DNA of 64,000 bases, from positions 22,016,501-22,080,500 of the forward strand of contig NC_068561.1 in the NCBI RefSeq assembly GCF_022201045.2. Reading direction: 5' to 3'. A model generated the notes under the pieces. That model saw nothing but the letters and a program-made list of their open reading frames with translations, was not told the DNA's origin and searched no databases. The position numbers and the translations under genes are program-made. Origin of the DNA: Citrus sinensis. Lineage: Eukaryota; Streptophyta; Magnoliopsida; Sapindales; Rutaceae. Positions 10,724-46,316 of this stretch are shown one piece after another; positions within the stretch are counted from its first letter, which is position 1, and each line of letters begins with the position of its first letter.

Positions 10724-13367
10724 ATGGAAGAAGAAGATGAAAGCCTTGAAAAGTTGCTGAAATGGGCAGCAGAAATGGGAATTACAGACTCAACAATTCA
10801 AAACCCTTCTCGCTCTCGCAACTGTTTGGGCCATTCTCTCACCGTCTCTCATTTCCCGGAGGCAGGTGGGTGAGTTACAGACTGAGCTCTGCTTATTCGA
10901 ATGGAATATATATAATTTTTCATGTATGCATATAATTTTTCTTCTGTTACAGGAGAGGATTGGCTGCCGCTCGCGATCTTACAAAAGGAGAATTGATTCT
11001 CAGAGTTCCAAAAACAGCCTTATTTACTACTGAATGTTTATTGAAAAGTGATCAGAAACTATCTCTTGCTGTTAACAGACATCTCTTTCTCTCCCCTTCT
11101 CAGGTTTTTTTTTTTACTTTTATAGATATAATGTTTCCGCAATTGGGATTTTTCATTTTTTTTTTTGGTTTATTTTCTTATTACTAAGTGTAATTTTGCA
11201 GATATTGATTGTTTGTTTACTATATGAAGTGGGTAAAGGAAAGAGTTCACGGTGGCATGCATACTTAATGCTATTGCCTCGTTGTTATGAGATACTTGCA
11301 ACCTTTGGTCCATTTGAGAAGCAAGCTCTTCAGGTTCAGTTTCTTTATTCTTTTGTTATTTGGAAGTAATTATGTTAGTTATTTGCTTCTCTGATAGTAA
11401 ATTCTTCCTTAGGTGGATGATGCTATCTGGGCTGCTGAGAAGGCTGTGTCCAAAGCTGAATCCGAGTGGAAGCAAGCCATTAAACTAATGGAAGAACTTA
11501 AGCTTAAGCCTCAACTGCTTTCTTTTAAGGCGTGGCTTTGGGCTTCCGCAACTGTAAGAATATCTAGACCTTTTTAGTAAATTCTAAGATTTATTTATTT
11601 AGTTACTTGGCATAGCTCTAGGAAAATCATATTCTTGTTGATTGAACCACATGTTTCTAAGAAATGGTTTAACCTCAAGATCCCAGAAATGATAGTTTAC
11701 TTGGATTTGTGCACAAGTCAAATAATTGTATGTTCAATTTTTATCGTGTTTACAGGTTTCCTCTCGGACAATGCATATATCATGGGATGAAGCCGGGTGT
11801 TTATGTCCTGTGGGAGATTTATTTAACTATGCTGCACCTGGAGAGGGAGAAGAGTCAAATATTGGCATTGAAGATGTTGAAGGCTGGATGCCTGCCCCAT
11901 GTTTGCCAAAGGGGGATACTACAGATGTCTTAGATTCTGAGAAATTCAATGATCATCTGCATAGGTTAACGGATGGTAGATTTGAGGAAGATGTTAATTC
12001 CTACTGTTTTTATGCTAGGAACAACTATAAGAGGGGAAAACAGGTACAACAAATTTCTTTTGACTAATTGGGCATGCGATAGCTTTCTGTTTTGTTTAAG
12101 AAGAAAAAGTTTGGAATCAAATCGCTAGCTTTTGATCCTATATCAAGTGTGGATGCTGACAGAATTGACATGTGATTTAATCATAAAAGCATGTTGTTCA
12201 TGAATGGTCAAGTTTTTTCTACTCTACTTTATCCTGATATTGCCATTGATGTAAGCTTCCTAAGTACATAATTTTCGGGTTTACTTTTGATCAACTGCCA
12301 GTGCTGCATAATGATGTATTACTTCTCTTTGAAGAGCTTCATCTTCTCTCGGCTGTTGTCATATTTAAGAAGGTTTTAGATGTTGAAAGAACTTGTTGCT
12401 ATAGCAACGGTAATAATAAGACAGTCTTGGAAGAAACTTGCTCTTTGAAATTTTGTAGCCTTTATAATATTCTCTTAGCATCATCTTAGTATCTTAAAAA
12501 TGATTCAACAAAACCCCGTTAACCATTGTGGCTTTTTCTTGTGTAATTATATAGGCCTGAGTTATCCTAATTTGATTTGAATGTTACAAAGCAAATCTTA
12601 GGTTTGAAGGGAAAATTAGACATTTATCATGACATTGTCATCTGCTTGCAAAATTGTTTTTGTCAATATCCATGAAGCTAGATGAGATTAAATCAGTGTC
12701 TTGTTTGCTGCAGGTTCTATTAAGTTATGGAACTTACACAAATTTGGAGCTCCTTGAACACTACGGGTTTCTTTTAAATGAGAATCCAAATGACAAGGTT
12801 TTTATATCCTTGGAACCTGGCATGTATTCCGGTTGTTCGTGGCCCCGTGAATCACAATACGTTGACCAAGATGGTAAGCCATCGTTTGCTCTCCTCTCTG
12901 CTTTGCGGTTGTGGATGACACCAGCGAACCAACGGAGGTCAGTTGGCCACCTTGCTTATTCAGGATATCAACTTTCGGTGAACAACGAGATATCTGTCAT
13001 GAAATGCTTATCAAACAACTGTTGTGTTATGCTGAACAGTTTGCCGACATCAAAAGAGGAAGATGCCTTATTGCTGTGCGCCATTGATAAAATCCAAGAC
13101 ATCAATACGGCAACAGAACTGAAAAAGGTTCTGTCAGATTTTGGAGGTGAGGTCTCTACATTCTTAGAAAACTACTATGTGCAATGCAGGCAGAGGGGTG
13201 CTAAGTTATCATTATCCCGGAAGACTAAATTGTCTATGCAGAGGTGGAAATTAGCAATTCAGTGGAGACTTAGATATAAGAAAACTCTTGCTGACTGCAT
13301 TTCTTATTGTGATTATACAGTGAATTGTCTTCCTAATGATAACGTTCCGACTGGTGGAATTAAATAG
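10724..13367 (+). CDS. SDG40: SET-domain protein methyltransferase, SDG40-like
   Basis: Six exons, 10724-10869, 10953-11103, 11202-11333, 11413-11553, 11756-12043 and 12714-13367, encode 503 residues. The protein resembles the Rubisco-LSMT/SETD3 class of SET enzymes, which use S-adenosylmethionine to methylate lysine (or histidine) in non-histone proteins. The split SET domain starts near GRGLAAARDLTKGE (about residues 49-62) and closes with CPVGDLFNYA (207-216) and YGTYTNLELLEHYGF (291-305). The substrate-binding helical region follows. The usual NH of the SET core reads NY (214-215), as I also recall for Arabidopsis SDG40. Exon 1 uses the strong donor GTGAGT at 10870; a nearer GT at 10866 breaks the frame. 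The neighbouring PSY gene matches the Arabidopsis pair At5g17230/17240. The target protein is unknown to me. Confidence 0.9.
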
Positions 13368-13565
13368 TGCCTAATGTAACTCACATCTTTGTTACGAAAG
13401 TGTAGACTCACTATTCCTGATTTATTTTTGAGCCAAAATTCATCTCCAGGTAAAATTTTTGGATAGAATTGGATCGATAGCCAAAATTCATTTCATATTC
13501 TTGAAGCTGAAAATTCAATCCCGTTATTATTATTATCTAATGATTGAGTTGACAATTGAATATTG

Positions 13566-13660
13566 ATGGATCAGATTTCTGGCTTGGATTCTCAAAAGAG
13601 AGAAAAAATCGCACAGCTTAATCAACTTCGATCATCTGGGGAAATAATCATCACATCCAT
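13566..13660 (-). ncRNA. C/D-box snoRNA, copy A
   Basis: Read on the minus strand this 95-nt unit begins ATGGAT and ends ATCCAT, forming the terminal stem. Just inside lie a perfect C box GTGATGA (plus-strand 13648-13654) and a D box CTGA (13571-13574). An internal D'-like TTGA sits between. The antisense segment before the D box, GAATCCAAGCCAG, is identical in all three copies. C/D snoRNAs guide 2'-O-methylation of rRNA or snRNA with fibrillarin in the nucleolus. I could not place the target. It is the last of three copies in a cluster transcribed from about 14.32 kb. Confidence 0.78.
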
Positions 13661-13754
13661 CATAATCTCTTCAATTTCCTATAAAGTATTATATGCCATT
13701 GCTTCAAAACTATGTACTTCAAAAATTACAAGATATAAAATGATAAGAAAAAGA

Positions 13755-13849
13755 ATGGATCAGAATTCTGGCTTGGATTCTCGAAAAGAGAAACAGATCG
13801 CTTAGTTTAATCAGCGTCGATCATTTGGGGAAATAATCCTCACTTCCAT
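13755..13849 (-). ncRNA. C/D-box snoRNA, copy B (altered C box)
   Basis: Same architecture as copy A: terminal stem ATGGA/TCCAT, D box CTGA at 13760-13763, internal D' CTGA, and the conserved antisense GAATCCAAGCCAG. Its C box reads GTGAGGA (13837-13843) instead of GTGATGA, changing a position of the kink-turn core. This copy may therefore be weakened or decaying while its neighbours stay intact. Confidence 0.65.
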
Positions 13850-13940
13850 CCCTAAATCATATAATATTAAAGATCTTTTTTTTTTAATTTCTTAAAAAAA
13901 TTCAAATAAACAAGGAAAAAATTCAAATACGAAAATGAAA

Positions 13941-14040
13941 ATGGATCAGAAGACTGGCTTGGATTCTCAAAAAAAATAGAAAGGAAAATCGCACGGTTTA
14001 ATCAGCGTCGTTCATCTGGGGAAATAATCATCACATCCAT
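13941..14040 (-). ncRNA. C/D-box snoRNA, copy C
   Basis: A 100-nt unit with terminal stem ATGGAT/ATCCAT, perfect C box GTGATGA (plus-strand 14028-14034), D box CTGA (13946-13949) and an internal D' CTGA. The D guide keeps GAATCCAAGCCAG. The segment before D', CCCAGATGAACGACG, is close to those in copies A and B, so a second guide is possible. It is the first C/D unit downstream of the promoter. Confidence 0.78.
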
Positions 14041-14150
14041 TTTAATTTCTTCAGAAAACTTAAAATTTACATAAAAGAAAATAAATTTATCCGGATCTGC
14101 AAAAAAGAAAACGAAAAAGAAAAAAATCTCTTAGCTTGCAGAAAAGGAGC

Positions 14151-14218
14151 AGATGTAGCGTCGTCTCATACACAGCACCCAATTAGACACAAAGCGCTGG
14201 TAATCAGTATTCGACGCT
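14151..14218 (-). ncRNA. H/ACA-type snoRNA 3' hairpin (candidate)
   Basis: On the minus strand a 7-bp outer stem AGCGTCG/CGACGCT (14212-14218 with 14157-14163) encloses an asymmetric internal loop. A 6-bp inner stem CAGCGC/GTGCTG with one wobble pair and an apical loop follow. ACA comes directly after the outer stem and three nucleotides precede the presumed end. The distance from the inner stem to ACA is 16 nt, as in pseudouridylation pockets. I did not find a convincing 5' hairpin or H box; a 20-plus T tract lies just upstream (transcript sense). It could be half a snoRNA or a chance fold. Confidence 0.5.
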
Positions 14219-14345
14219 GTAAACGTAGTTCGGAAAAAAAAAAAAAAAAAAAAAGGGAATACAAAAGCTAAGAAATTATAGCATTGAGTTAAACGACAGC
14301 GGCGACCGGGAGAGGGTTCATTACTCACAAACGATGTCTTATGAC

Positions 14346-14377
14346 TACTTATAGGAAGAAGAGTAGGGTTTAGGGTT
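14346..14377 (-). promoter_or_regulatory. Telobox and TATA promoter of the snoRNA cluster
   Basis: On the minus strand AACCCTAAACCCT (14365-14377) is a double telobox, and a TATAAGTA motif (14346-14353) follows about 12 bases downstream. Teloboxes with TATA are typical of plant ribosome-biogenesis and snoRNA promoters. All snoRNA units lie downstream in the same orientation. A CACGTG occurs further upstream at about 14419. Confidence 0.65.
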
Positions 14378-14399
14378 GTCTTCCAAAACCCCAAACCTA

Positions 14400-16024
14400 A
14401 AGCAAAGTGAACTTACGCCACGTGTTCGGACCTCGAAACTTAACTTAATTACACAACCTACCCGATGTACCTCCGTTTGGTTTTTCTTTTTACCCCTTCT
14501 AAAAATTGAGTTTTATTTCATTTGAACCTCCCCGATGCTGGAGCGACGGCGGTTCCGGAATCCGGCTGGCTATTTCTTATTTTAAAGCTTTAGAAATTAG
14601 ATTTAGATGTGTGGTGGTGCGATTTACTCGCGAAAACAAACGCGTAAAGTTCATTATAGAATCTTTTTGGTTTTTTTTTTTTAAGATTTATTGACTGACG
14701 GTTGATAAAATTAAAAATAATAAAATAATACATCAAATTTTTATTTAAGGCAATCCCTAAGTGTACATGTTTTTTAAGATTCTTCAAACTAGATGAAAAT
14801 GTTCAGTCCGTATCAAACTAGTGCTTGGAAAGGACACATCATACCCCTTCCAGCCAATGAGATTCAGACACGCACGTTAATAACAGAGAATTTGCTGCCA
14901 CAACTCCCCTAACGTGGTAAATGAATCAGACACTACAATTTTATTTCTTTTATTAGTTTCATTGTGATATTTATCATATTCCAAGCAGTGGAGAAACACT
15001 GTTTGTGAAATAATTTCTCAATTGTATTGTGTACAGTTGTCATACAAGAAAAATTGTTTGATATGAGGTTTTGGTGCTTCATGCTTTCACAGTAAGCTTT
15101 CATAATGACGAAGATCTTAAATTGTATATCAACATTTCATCTCAAATGATAAATAATGTAACATATAATATATCGTTCATTAAGTAGTACATATTTCCAT
15201 AAATTTTAAGTTACATCATCCACTTATAAATATTATATTACTTAAAATGAAATTTTGAGATATACAATTTCAAAATGTCTGGCCCTATTCTTTTAGGAAT
15301 AAATGCTTTTGAGTTATAACTTTTCATTTTCTTGCATGATGACAAAGGCGTCGTATAATATAATGCATGAACCTTCTTAGTCATAAAGCAAACTGAAATT
15401 CAAAAAGGAACTCATGAATATTCACGATAGCCATTACATGTACAGTCGTGTGAAATTTACAAATTCTTAGCAAAATGAAGAAACCAATTTCGGAATTCTG
15501 AATTAGTTGCGATAACCAAGGAAAGAATTATAAGAACACGAAGCTTGAGTTATGATGCAGGCTGCTGTATATGCTAATAATGCTTCAATGGGAGACAAAT
15601 TAATTGAAGAAGTTCCGTATAAAGATGCCAACTTTTCTTCCCTTGCCATTTTTCTTTCTTCCTTACGGCCACGGAAAGAAAAGTATTTTTTTCTTTTCTT
15701 TTACTTCATCAAACAATCAGGAATCTACTTCTCTTTATCTGTTAAATTCTTTGCTTTCTCCAACCCACTTTTATGAATGTTCTTTCTCCTCATGCGCTCT
15801 CCTTTCTAGCCCCACATTCGGACAAAACATTTTCACCACTATTGTTACATTTACAAAGTTTGTATCTCAACTGATATACGTAATAGATACCTGCTTTCCT
15901 CTTTGATAAAACCAAGTTACATATGATATTACTTGTGATACAAATTTTGTAGCCCGACTTTGTAAGCGTCACGTGTCTCAGTACGTGAGGAAACAAATTA
16001 ACCAGCCATGCATCAATATCACTC
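14400..16024. other. Intergenic, upstream of sucrose synthase
   Basis: AT-rich DNA holding the far promoter of the sucrose synthase gene and possibly the upstream control region of the snoRNA cluster. Short open frames at about 15.5-15.9 kb are low-complexity and were not accepted. No repeats were recognised. Confidence 0.5.
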
Positions 16025-40755: not shown

Positions 40756-43700
40756 TTAGCTCCTCATCTGATTTTGGTTCAAGTTACTGTATTCCTCAAT
40801 GCCGTACTTCTGGTACACCACTACCTGATTTTCTTCCCACCATCGCTCTGCTGCCTTCTCGGTGAATCGCCTCCGGCTACAAAACAAGCAGCGAGGACAA
40901 ATAAATCTTTATTTGAACTGCTTTCAGATCAACATGGGGTCTTTTTTTTTTCTTTTGTATTTTTTGGGGTTAAAGATCAATGCAGGTTGAGTTCAAAGAA
41001 TATACCATACAAAAAGATATGATTCACTTGATAGAACATTACCTAAATCGTACTCGCTTTAACCCCTTCTGCCCACTCGGCAAAGTTGTAAATGTGATAT
41101 ATATGCCAGGTTCATACTGCTCTGCATATTCAAGCTTAGATGCCTTTGTTCCCTTTTGTTGAGGCTCTGTTCTTGCAACCTTTGAGTCCTCCACGGATCC
41201 ACTACTATTGTCGTGGCATAACTCTCTCCCATACACTGATTTTAACTTATTGGAGAACACAATAGGGGAGCTACATAGGCTATCTACTTTCCTGTCTTTC
41301 GGTAATTTAACTTCAGGATGTTTATCAGTATCAAGCTTTGGAGGAAGATTTGCATCAACCCCTTCTTTTGCTTCTTTTGCAGCGGATATTTTTTCTGATA
41401 GCGTATGAAGCTGCCCAATAAGATTGATATGCTAAGTTTAAATAAAAGTTAAACCATGCACCAGTGGCATATCAAATTAAGAAATTTTATGGTTTTCCAT
41501 CAATAATTTGATAGCCCAATTGTGGAGTTCTCATTTCCAATTGTAAAAGACATAAACAAGAAAAGTAACTCAATTAAATAAGCTGATGTAGATTATAGAT
41601 TATTAGATTGATAAAATAACATGCAGTCAATACTAGAAGACAGAGATCTTGCATGGTTCAGTTTCAGGCCCACCTCACCAGGCCAGTAAAAAAGTAAGAA
41701 AAATCACCATGAAATCTTGATGATGACTTGATACAATTGATAAAAACTGATTGAAACTATAAATAAAACGGAAATGATAGAGAAATTGACTTCTTTCAGG
41801 GGATTAAAAAGATCAGCAGTTTTTTACCCCAAAAAGTTGAGCAACACATCAATAGTCCAAGGTGTGATAAATGATAGATGGATAATCCCAGCTGCAAAGC
41901 TACGAATTATCGGGCCATCTAATATAACAGCAAGAAAACAATACTTACCCTCACTGCCAAAGCTTTTATAATCTCCTTTGCTGCTTTACACTTTTCAGCT
42001 TCCTCCCTCGCCAATGACCAAGCTTCCTCAATTTTTTGTTGGCATTCTTGAACCTTCTGATTTCCAATTTGACATTGCTTTTCAAGGTTCCTGGCCTGTT
42101 CAAAGTAAACCAAACAATATAATACATACATACATGTATTAACCAAAATACAAGAAACCAACTGATAATCAACTTCAAAACTCTAAATCATGAGAAAATT
42201 AATCAAGCAATTACCTGATCTCTAAGCCTCTGAACTTCTTCATTGAGCATCTTATTTGATTCAGACAAGTCTTTCTCTACAGTCGAGGCAATGGGAATAA
42301 AATTTGATCCCAAAGATATCTTTCGCAAAAGGGGTGAGTGGGTAGACATTTGGGTTTTAGGAATCGGAGTAGGTTCCACAGATTTTTCATGACAATGAGT
42401 TTTGAATCGGATAGGGCAAGAAACTTGCCCCCATCTTTGTAGTCCAGATGACAAAGAAGAAGCAGACTCCAAGCATTCACCGGGTTTCCTTTCGACATTT
42501 CTAGACTGTTTACTAGTAAATGATTGACCTCTTGAAGGAGTCAATGCTCCCTTCTCTTCCTTCACCTCTTCAGATAAACTACCCTGCAAGTTCAATAAAT
42601 TCCTTGGACTCTGATTTTCCTGCTTTAACAGCCTTCCTGAATGCGTTATCTTTTGCAAATGGTTGTAGCATGTATCACAGACACGGGAAGGCTTGCCCTT
42701 ATTTGGTGTCAAGGATGCATTTATTATTTTCTTCGTACTACAAGCACTGCAAAAGTGAAGACCACAATTATAACAGTTGTGTTTCTTCCTCCTAAACCCA
42801 AAGGGCATTCTACATTGACTACAAGATGACTGATCACCAACAGAGATAGATTTATGTAAACAGATTGCAGCAGTTATACTTGATCCACATACTACACTCT
42901 CGACCTGCCTATCTCTCAAAGCCTCAACAAAAGTTGGTGTTTCTCTCTCTTGACTATCACCTAATCCTAGCTGTCCATTTGCATTTTTCCCCCATGTGTA
43001 AACACTTCCTCCCGAAGTCAAGACAGCGACATGATATGATCCCGATGAGATTCCCTTAACAAACTCCTCTTTAAGCTTTCCTTCAACAACTGTTATTGAC
43101 CTATCCTTTGCCTTTGGATTCCCTAACTGCCCATGCACTGCACTTCCCATTGTATAAACTTTACCTAAACCAGTAAGTCCAACAGTCAACATTCTTCCAC
43201 ATGAAGCTTGTACAAAATCAAAATCTACAAGTCGTGTGACACATGTTGGTAAAAGCTTTCTCTCTCCATCCACATGCCCAAGTCTCCCTTTATCAGCATC
43301 ACCCCAAGTGAATAATTTCCCACCAATGGCGTTTGACTTGCAACGATCAACCATGATATCCACAATAGCAGCCGTGTGCCATGGTCCACATGCAACAGAT
43401 TTTACTTTTAGTCCCCTTAGAGATTCAACTTCTTTTGGTTGTGAAACATTTTGCAAATTCCCATGCCCAAGAACCCCAAAAGTTCCATCTCCATATGTAA
43501 ATAATTGCCCAGAAGTGGAGACAATTGCTGTATGCCACTCCCCACAAGCTACTTTTGATACCCTTACACCATCCAAAGTATCAAAAAGTTTACGTGGAAG
43601 CCAGTGGCTTCTACTTCTCCTCTCACCAACTAAATCAGCACCATGATTATTATGACCCCATGTATATATTTCACCAGATTTTGTCAGTGCACATGTTTGA

Positions 43701-46316
43701 AATTCACCACATGACACAGACTGTACATTGATCCCACTGAGGCATTCAACAAGTTTTGGACAGCTTACATCCATATTTACTTTGTGGCCAAGCCTTCCAT
43801 CTTTTCCCTCCCCCCAACAAAAAACTTCTCCTTCTTTAGTAACTAAGGCTGCGTGTTTTGCTCCCAAAGATATATTTTGTACGTCTAACATCACAGCTGA
43901 TTCAAGCAATTTAGGCAATAAAGCATCCACCTGTGTTTTGTTCTGGCTAACAGAACCATCAACTGCACCTCCAATATCTCCCCCAAGCACACCTTCCCCC
44001 CAGATCATGACATCTTTCAGAATATCTTTTCTTTCTATTAGGGGAGACCCGTAAGTGGGTGTGACAAGCCTATGAGACTCATTCTTTGGACATCGTGTGT
44101 CAGCATAATTCAATTCCCACTTCATGAAATTCTCTGTTTCCATATGTGGAGAACTTGGAGTTATGATGTTGGATAAATTTTGAATCTGTGATGAACTTGA
44201 TTCTGATGAATAAAAGCTGTCTGAAGAATATGATAATCCATCAGAAAAACACCTTTCTGAAAGTGAAAGAGAAGGACTCCCACATAAGCTGCGGACCTTG
44301 AGCACAGAAAGGAACAGAATCAAATTATTTTATAGGTAAAGTTGCAGAGTTGCTTTAATCACAGCTAGAAAAGGAAAATTATTTCTGTTGTAAACAACTG
44401 TAGCAGGGTATTTAAAACCTGAGATAATTCAGTGGCATCCTCTAGAAGTCCTAGATTGTGCTTTCTTCTTATATAACTAGCCGGACTACTAACACAGCTC
44501 TGTACCCCTCTTTTCTCCCTCAAACAAGAGAATGTTCTGGAACGACGACAGCTAGATATCGCAGCTCTGAGGCCTAAAAACCAAGATTCAGCTTGAACTT
44601 TGTCCTTGCAAATCTACGAAGAAGATAACAGACAAAATATCAGTAATCCATAAACTGTAATGATAGGAACAAACTCAAACAAGTAGAACAGGAAAAAAAA
44701 AAACTCAAACTAGTAGCTTAATTACAGGGCATGCAGCAGCACAAGTTCTATGCTTACCAGATCAAGTGAGCGCTCACCATTTGCATATATGATTGAAAAG
44801 GACTGCTGCTTCCTATCCGGTTGAGGTTGACATTGAAAATTTACCTACAAAGAGTAAAATCACTATTCATATAAATGAGAAATGTCCAATATAGCAATGG
44901 AACTGGATGTTACGCAGTCGTTTTGAAACATACAGTCCTCTGCCCCATTATAATCTTAGTAACTGAGTTCAATCTCAATTGCTTTTCTTTTTGGCCGGAG
45001 TACCAAATCAAGAATTTCTCATCCTGTAAAGTAAATGGATACTCATTAGCCGAAAGCTTGAACGTGTAAAGCTGTAAGAATGTTTACTATATTACATGAA
45101 TTTCCTTCCATCTCATCACTAATGTATACATAAACTACCACCCAAAGTTTAATCAGAATAGTCATTCGGGTTTCTCTAAAGCCAGCTTGACAGGCTAGAG
45201 CATATTATTCTTGAATCCACCACAATAATACCATTAGCTAGTAACACAGCTCAGTCTGGTTTTTATCTACCATATGTAACAATGTTTTAACATGGACTTA
45301 TATTTTGATATCCACATTAGCCTGACATATCTTTTGAAAAAATGAGGAACGCCGGTTTCAACTCAACTCAGTTATAGTAGCTTATCTCAAACCAAATTGA
45401 ACTTTAAACAGTTACAGTTCTTTAAGTGCAATATCAAATTTACTAACCATTGAAAGCCTGAAAGGGCAGAACCTAGGCTTCCCCCTTCTTCCACACTTCA
45501 AGAGGTGTGCCCCTTTCTTTATGGCCAGAATTGCCTGCAATCACAATAAAATTATGAGACTATATCTCTACAAGAACCTTAAAGAAAATTTAAACATTGT
45601 CACATAAAAGGAAAACATTAATATAGTGTTATCTAGCAAAAATGAATTAAAATCAACAGTTTTTCCACCGACCACTGTAACAAATAGTTTCTATAAAATC
45701 ATAGAAAGCTAGAATAATTAGATTCAAGAAATCAACCACTACCAGAGAAAAACAAAAGAAATTTCCTTTGCATTTAAAAAAAAGAAAAAAGAAAAGCTGA
45801 ATTGATTACGAAGAAGAAATAATACATAATAGCTATAGAAAATGCTGAAAATACACCTACCAGCATACTCAAAACAAAAGAAACAAACTGTCATGACCCA
45901 AAAATTATAAATATAAAAGCAAAGAAACTGCATTTAAATATACCAAATAATTATGAACAGAGTCCAAAAAAAATCGTTCAGCCTAGCAACAAAACTTACA
46001 AAACCAACAAAGCGATCACAACTAATAATTGATCGTGTTCAAAACAGAAAAGCAACTCAGAAATTGATTCCTACTTGCATTACTCTACTTCATCACATTC
46101 CTAGCACTGAGAAGCAAGAATAAACAACTTTCTAAGAAAATTACAGACAAAGCAATGATGCTAAGAAAACGGCAGCAAACAAAAAAAAGAAGAAAGGAAA
46201 AAGAAAATCCCAGATCAAAGGATAGAATTTTGTAGAAGAAAAATGAGAACCTGTTGAACGTTTCTATCAAGAGGGACGACAGGTATTGTAGTTAAGAAAT
46301 CATCTTCTTCAGCCAT
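40756..46316 (-). CDS. PH, RCC1 and FYVE domain protein (PRAF) with C-terminal BRX domain
   Basis: Nine minus-strand exons, 46316-46251, 45534-45448, 45023-44934, 44844-44758, 44613-44419, 44296-42215, 42095-41949, 41410-41043 and 40876-40756, encode 1080 residues, the normal PRAF length. A PH domain spans about residues 20-140 and ends in ESWFLGLRAAIS. RCC1 propeller repeats occupy about 270-656 (FCWGEGKDGRLGH, IYTWGHNNHG, LFTWGDADKGRLGH, VYTWGKNANGQLGLGD). A FYVE zinc finger follows at about 656-726 with the Cys pairs and RKKHNCYNCGLHFC, the plant PRAF variant of the RHHCR motif. Then come a coiled coil (about 850-910) and a BRX domain (about 1008-1064, EQYEPGIYITFTTLPSG...RRRFTEKAAERWW). 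These proteins bind phosphoinositides and may act as exchange factors for small GTPases. The specific paralog is not assigned. Confidence 0.95.

Follow-up and report, generated by a model that had tools for sequence, protein, structure and literature searches.

In a box C/D snoRNA, the core proteins bind a kink-turn built from the C and D boxes, and the stretch upstream of box D pairs with a target RNA, which is 2'-O-methylated on the base facing the fifth guide position. PMC4660826 and PMC8053127 describe telobox promoters and polycistronic snoRNA genes as plant-typical, and according to PMC4660826 teloboxes, together with Site II elements, mark the promoters of plant polycistronic snoRNA and ribosomal-protein genes. 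Clusters, tandem duplicates and ribosomal-protein hosts have already been described for plant snoRNAs (PMC5122169, PMC8351944 and PMC6172812). For snoZ103, our literature search returned mentions of the accession, RF00149, and found neither a discussion of the snoRNA nor a description of its gene layout. Since snoZ103 is a public Rfam family, the kind of gene described here is already known; the arrangement, a three-copy cluster plus a copy linked to RPL7, is that of the Citrus sinensis genome.

The stretch of C. sinensis DNA that we analysed (the window, 64,000 nt) contains three RF00149 matches, the only matches returned for it by Rfam 15 at gathering thresholds (Table 1). The first-pass annotation had placed three minus-strand units of 95–100 nt here and read them as copies of one C/D snoRNA; the Rfam search that it proposed agreed on both points, identifying all three at once as snoZ103. 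With E-values from 1.4e-17 to 1.4e-20 and scores far above the gathering score of 44 bits, chance is excluded for all three, and because each match spans the whole model we conclude that the units are real members of the named family, agreeing with it in boxes, length and conserved guide across the full 100 positions of the model. Their identity as a three-copy snoZ103 cluster is near certain. A permissive Rfam scan of 12500–15500 gave no other family at E<=1, and a tRNA scan across the window found none; a bacterial promoter and terminator scan was uninformative for plant DNA.

Table 1. Features of the snoZ103 cluster, in window positions.
Feature	Position	Strand	Remarks
Double telobox AACCCTAAACCCTA	14364-14377	-	unit 1 lies about 320 nt downstream, in the same orientation
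TATA-like motif TATAAGTAG	14345-14353	-	10 nt separate it from the telobox
snoZ103 unit 1	13941-14040	-	100 nt; RF00149 98 bits, model 1-100 of 100
Unit 1 conserved guide GAATCCAAGCCAG	13954-13966	-	4 nt before D box
Unit 1 D box CTGA	13946-13949	-	
snoZ103 unit 2	13755-13849	-	95 nt; RF00149 91 bits, model 1-100 of 100; variant C box GTGAGGA
Unit 2 conserved guide GAATCCAAGCCAG	13768-13780	-	4 nt before D box
Unit 2 D box CTGA	13760-13763	-	
snoZ103 unit 3	13566-13660	-	95 nt; RF00149 102.5 bits, model 1-100 of 100
Unit 3 conserved guide GAATCCAAGCCAG	13579-13591	-	4 nt before D box
Unit 3 D box CTGA	13571-13574	-	

The identical antisense guide and the D boxes reported for the three units were both recovered in every one, and guide and D box are in fact identical across all four genomic copies compared (the fourth is described below), the middle of the unit being more variable. 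CAAGCCA, the upper-case part of the RF00149 consensus near the guide, likewise stands ahead of the D box in all four. The other elements that had been annotated hold for some units and need qualification for others. A C box starts at position 7 of every unit, reading GTGATGA in units 1 and 3 and GTGAGGA in unit 2 (13837–13843), a variant that may weaken the kink-turn of that unit. Terminal stems of the form ATGGAT/ATCCAT are present at 6 bp in units 1 and 3, while unit 2 has ATGGAA and 5 bp. Internal D' boxes are CTGA in units 1 and 2 and TTGA in unit 3, and the motif that acts as D' is ambiguous. Compared with what is expected of a box C/D snoRNA (C box RUGAUGA, D box CUGA, short terminal stem), units 1 and 3 are therefore exact and unit 2 departs from it with GUGAGGA.

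A search of the assembly (299.7 Mb, 11 contigs) gave at least four RF00149 matches above the gathering score: the three in the window and one at C7:16455947-16456039 (L002:1501-1593), which scores 101.3 bits. Scoring extended to 52 of the 25,984 first-look candidates, which makes four a lower bound on the copy number. Downstream of the C7 copy is an exon that matches the Ribosomal L30 N-terminal domain (PF08079); the encoded protein reads as RPL7/uL30, and the C7 copy looks to be situated in an apparent RPL7 5'UTR intron, as judged from sequence. The leader upstream of this copy contains a telobox (L002:969), TATATA (L002:1003) and a Site II-type AGCCCA (L002:815). The family name and this further copy at an RPL7 (uL30) gene go beyond the first-pass annotation.

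The four copies agree at 82–85 of 93–95 aligned positions in each of the six pairwise comparisons, and the window copies are no closer to one another than to the C7 copy, from which several positions distinguish them. Either the amplification that gave the cluster is therefore not very recent, or a single constraint governs the evolution of the copies. Among 12 flank comparisons, spacer similarity exceeded chance in one, upstream of units 1 and 2 (1 of 200 shuffles), and no sign of shared ancestry was seen between the cluster leader and the RPL7 leader, 103 of 200 shuffles reaching the same score. A viral-contig match (L009) to an internal 18-mer was dropped as chance, snoRNA boxes being absent around it.

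The variant C box and shorter terminal stem of unit 2 raise the question of whether the units are a decayed, silent array produced by tandem duplication, leaving the whole function to the RPL7-intron copy. The C7 copy, though, has a stem as short as that of unit 2; guide and D box are intact in all three window units, whose bit scores (Table 1) are near that of the RPL7 copy; and the double telobox has been kept. We therefore regard decay as very improbable. Folding energies of the snoZ103 copies are not clearly better than those of shuffled sequences (z of 0.32, -0.81 and -1.64 for units 1–3 and -0.89 for the C7 copy, with 122, 29, 11 and 33 of 200 shuffles, respectively, folding equally well), and the minimum-energy fold of the C7 copy is without the terminal stem. 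C/D snoRNAs commonly fold weakly, so we do not count these energies as support either way.

Upstream of unit 1, on the strand of the units, are the double telobox and TATA-like motif of Table 1, as the first-pass annotation had it. The TATA-like motif, about 300 nt from unit 1, is absent from the TATA forms listed in PMC4660826, and the Site II element TGGGCY does not occur on either strand between 13000 and 15000. The cluster thus resembles the plant Telo-box/Site II polycistronic clusters in having several co-oriented snoRNAs behind a telobox, and is unlike them in that all units belong to one family and Site II is absent.

On the 3' side of the units, a plus-strand frame ending at 13367 matches the Rubisco-LSMT substrate-binding domain (PF09273, 23.5 bits, cut-off 21.6); on the 5' side are plus-strand coding stretches, with frames from about 16050 and a glycosyltransferase domain, which we take to be sucrose synthase. 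Positioned between two plus-strand coding regions, the units therefore occupy an apparent intergenic gap and look like a gene of their own. Also on the minus strand of the window, at 42203–44329, is a long frame of 708 aa that, by its sequence, presumably encodes RCC1-like repeats together with a FYVE-like pattern of cysteines.

The interval between promoter-like motifs and unit 1 contains a polypyrimidine stretch (14097–14127) that ends in TTTTTTGCAG at 14097 and resembles a splice acceptor. Together with the length of this interval, it could indicate that the cluster lies within a spliced host transcript, non-coding or with a short coding sequence, rather than in a bare pre-snoRNA. We consider such a host decidedly unlikely: an acceptor upstream of unit 1 would make the units exonic, there are no minus-strand ORFs of 150 aa or more between 7739 and 13566, and the likeness of the leader to that of RPL7 is, as above, no better than that of shuffles.

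Our preferred reading builds directly on the observed family, copy number in the window, boxes, their order, promoter-like motifs and the copy near the RPL7 start: the locus is very probably a Pol II pre-snoRNA gene in its own right, carrying snoZ103 in three tandem copies, which we infer to be transcribed as one precursor. It is supported by the Rfam assignment of all three units, the guide and D box identical in the four copies, the co-oriented double telobox, and the promoter motifs of the RPL7 copy. Counted against it are the missing Site II element, the usual companion of a telobox, the GTGAGGA of unit 2, the folding, and the failure of any rRNA target to rise above chance (see below). 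Polycistronic expression of the cluster is likely, being consistent with its layout. A telobox/TATA-type Pol II promoter would produce a single precursor across the three units; box C/D proteins assembling on the C/D kink-turn of each unit would protect it, and the protected units would be trimmed to stable RNAs of about 95–100 nt, in which the guide beside box D may direct 2'-O-methylation or another modification.

Which RNA this guide might serve was addressed mainly with rRNA. Our searches of the assembly did not find an intact nuclear 45S rDNA of C. sinensis; what the search with 5.8S yielded was a degraded rDNA copy at C3:52287890-52288045, around which L007:3803-5359 holds diverged pieces of 18S, 5.8S and 25S, and a partial rDNA piece on C8. 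The rRNA tests therefore used reconstructed Arabidopsis 18S, 25S and 5.8S sequences, of which 18S and 25S were checked against Table 1 of PMC8053127 (35 of 35 letters agreeing for 18S, and 73 of 74 for 25S once three shifts in numbering had been fitted). As the criterion for a methylation guide we took a duplex of at least about 10 bp in which the D+5 base falls on the methylated site.

The first-pass annotation had made a complementary rRNA or snRNA site a point on which its reading could fail, and in this respect it was not supported: none was found above chance in the reconstructed Arabidopsis rRNA, and the three U2 loci gave a single 8-nt match, to unit 2. The complement of the 13-nt guide is absent from the reconstructed 18S, 25S and 5.8S sequences. 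For all four copies, the best pairing anchored at D+5 is with 25S C2822, where CAAGCCAG pairs with CUGGCUUG over 8 bp, unit 1 and the C7 copy reaching 9 bp. By its numbering, C2822 is the counterpart of E. coli C2452 in the peptidyl transferase centre; Table 2 of PMC8053127 equates U2922 with E. coli U2552 and G2620 with G2251. That the snoZ103 D guide directs 2'-O-methylation of C2822 is unlikely in our estimation. In its favour, the consensus CAAGCCA coincides almost exactly with the pairing part, and for two accepted Arabidopsis guides the duplex is likewise only 8 bp long (PMC8053127). However, most guides pair over 10–14 bp (PMC8053127), C2822 is not among the 74 25S methylation sites mapped in Arabidopsis (PMC8053127, Table 1), and when the 17-nt guide of unit 3 is shuffled, 172 of 400 sequences attain 8 Watson-Crick pairs and 63 of 400 attain 9; a pairing that 172 shuffles can equal is not above chance.

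The remaining candidates were set aside one after another. When the 111 Arabidopsis rRNA methylation sites were compared with the copies (reconstructed rRNA), three gave 7 Watson-Crick pairs beside a box with at most two changes from CTGA: 25S A1377 (unit 1, TTGA), 18S A1758 (unit 3, CTCT) and 25S C1479 (unit 3, TTAA). Each is confined to one copy, and we accept none as a fit. The D' guide of unit 1 alone pairs over 11 nt (10 Watson-Crick) with 25S at positions 893–903 of the reconstructed sequence, a candidate rejected for a mid-duplex mismatch in the other copies and the lack of a listed methylation at the site (PMC8053127); the alternative D' (CAGA) gives at most 7 Watson-Crick pairs, both figures being raw pair counts. 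Among the best three matches per pair with the U2 loci, which are diverged from each other, the D guide matched only between unit 2 and L021, over 8 nt (7 Watson-Crick), and U2 was rejected as a target, the match being absent from the other copies. U1, U4, U5 and U6 were covered by the search for the perfect 13-mer alone, provided that the assembly holds them. This perfect complement, CTGGCTTGGATTC, occurs ten times in the assembly (a reversed control pattern, five times), four of these being the snoRNA genes themselves. Each of the six further loci falls, on one of the two strands, inside an open frame of 70 codons or more; none contains an Rfam gene at gathering thresholds, and we take them as chance. 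One of them, L014:1501-1513, lies within an exon encoding ...LDEPTSGLDST... and is probably chance; we assume from this motif that the exon is ABC-transporter-like.

The apparent lack of a methylation target is shared with the acetylation guides snR4, snR45 and U13, which are likewise C/D snoRNAs. A guide of the snR4/U13 type would form two pairings, one on either side of the acetylated C in 18S h34 or h45. Around the h34 site, the pairing of snoZ103 is no better than that of shuffles (40–75 of 100). At the h45 site there is a weak excess: the four copies pair 8–9 Watson-Crick bases upstream and 6–7 downstream through their U-rich middles (e.g. 13978–13988), and shuffles do as well in 3, 6, 7 and 7 of 100 cases, the four copies not being independent. 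The paired segments differ between copies and lie more than 10 nt from the acetylation site. Because it is the variable, U-rich part that pairs, and runs of U are not preserved on shuffling, we regard h45 as a weak lead only. It is conceivable, if rather improbable, that the D guide serves no mapped rRNA methylation and acts instead on 25S C2822 in lineages or tissues that have yet to be mapped, acts on an RNA outside the ribosome, or guides a base modification.

snoZ103 thus looks like an orphan guide, in common with the plant C/D snoRNAs that have no convincing rRNA target (SnoR4, SnoR6, SnoR106, SnoR114, SnoR122, SnoR165 and others; PMC8053127). Orphans of this kind are listed in PMC8053127 and PMC5122169, and snoZ103 was not matched to any name listed there. 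It is important to note that, with the rRNA of another species and an incomplete set of snRNAs, its orphan status is a lead and not a result.

The cluster is a real but ordinary find, belonging as it does to a known family. With it, a little-described plant snoRNA gains a well-formed homotypic cluster and a further locus linked to RPL7, both of which protein gene finders would miss in annotation. With no target above chance, snoZ103 becomes a candidate orphan guide for methylation mapping. On the rather improbable reading above, in which snoZ103 is a conserved plant C/D snoRNA whose D guide serves no mapped rRNA methylation, the at least four copies kept by the C. sinensis genome would stand under two different kinds of control, that of the telobox cluster and that of the RPL7 intron, and their dosage would be tied to ribosome production.
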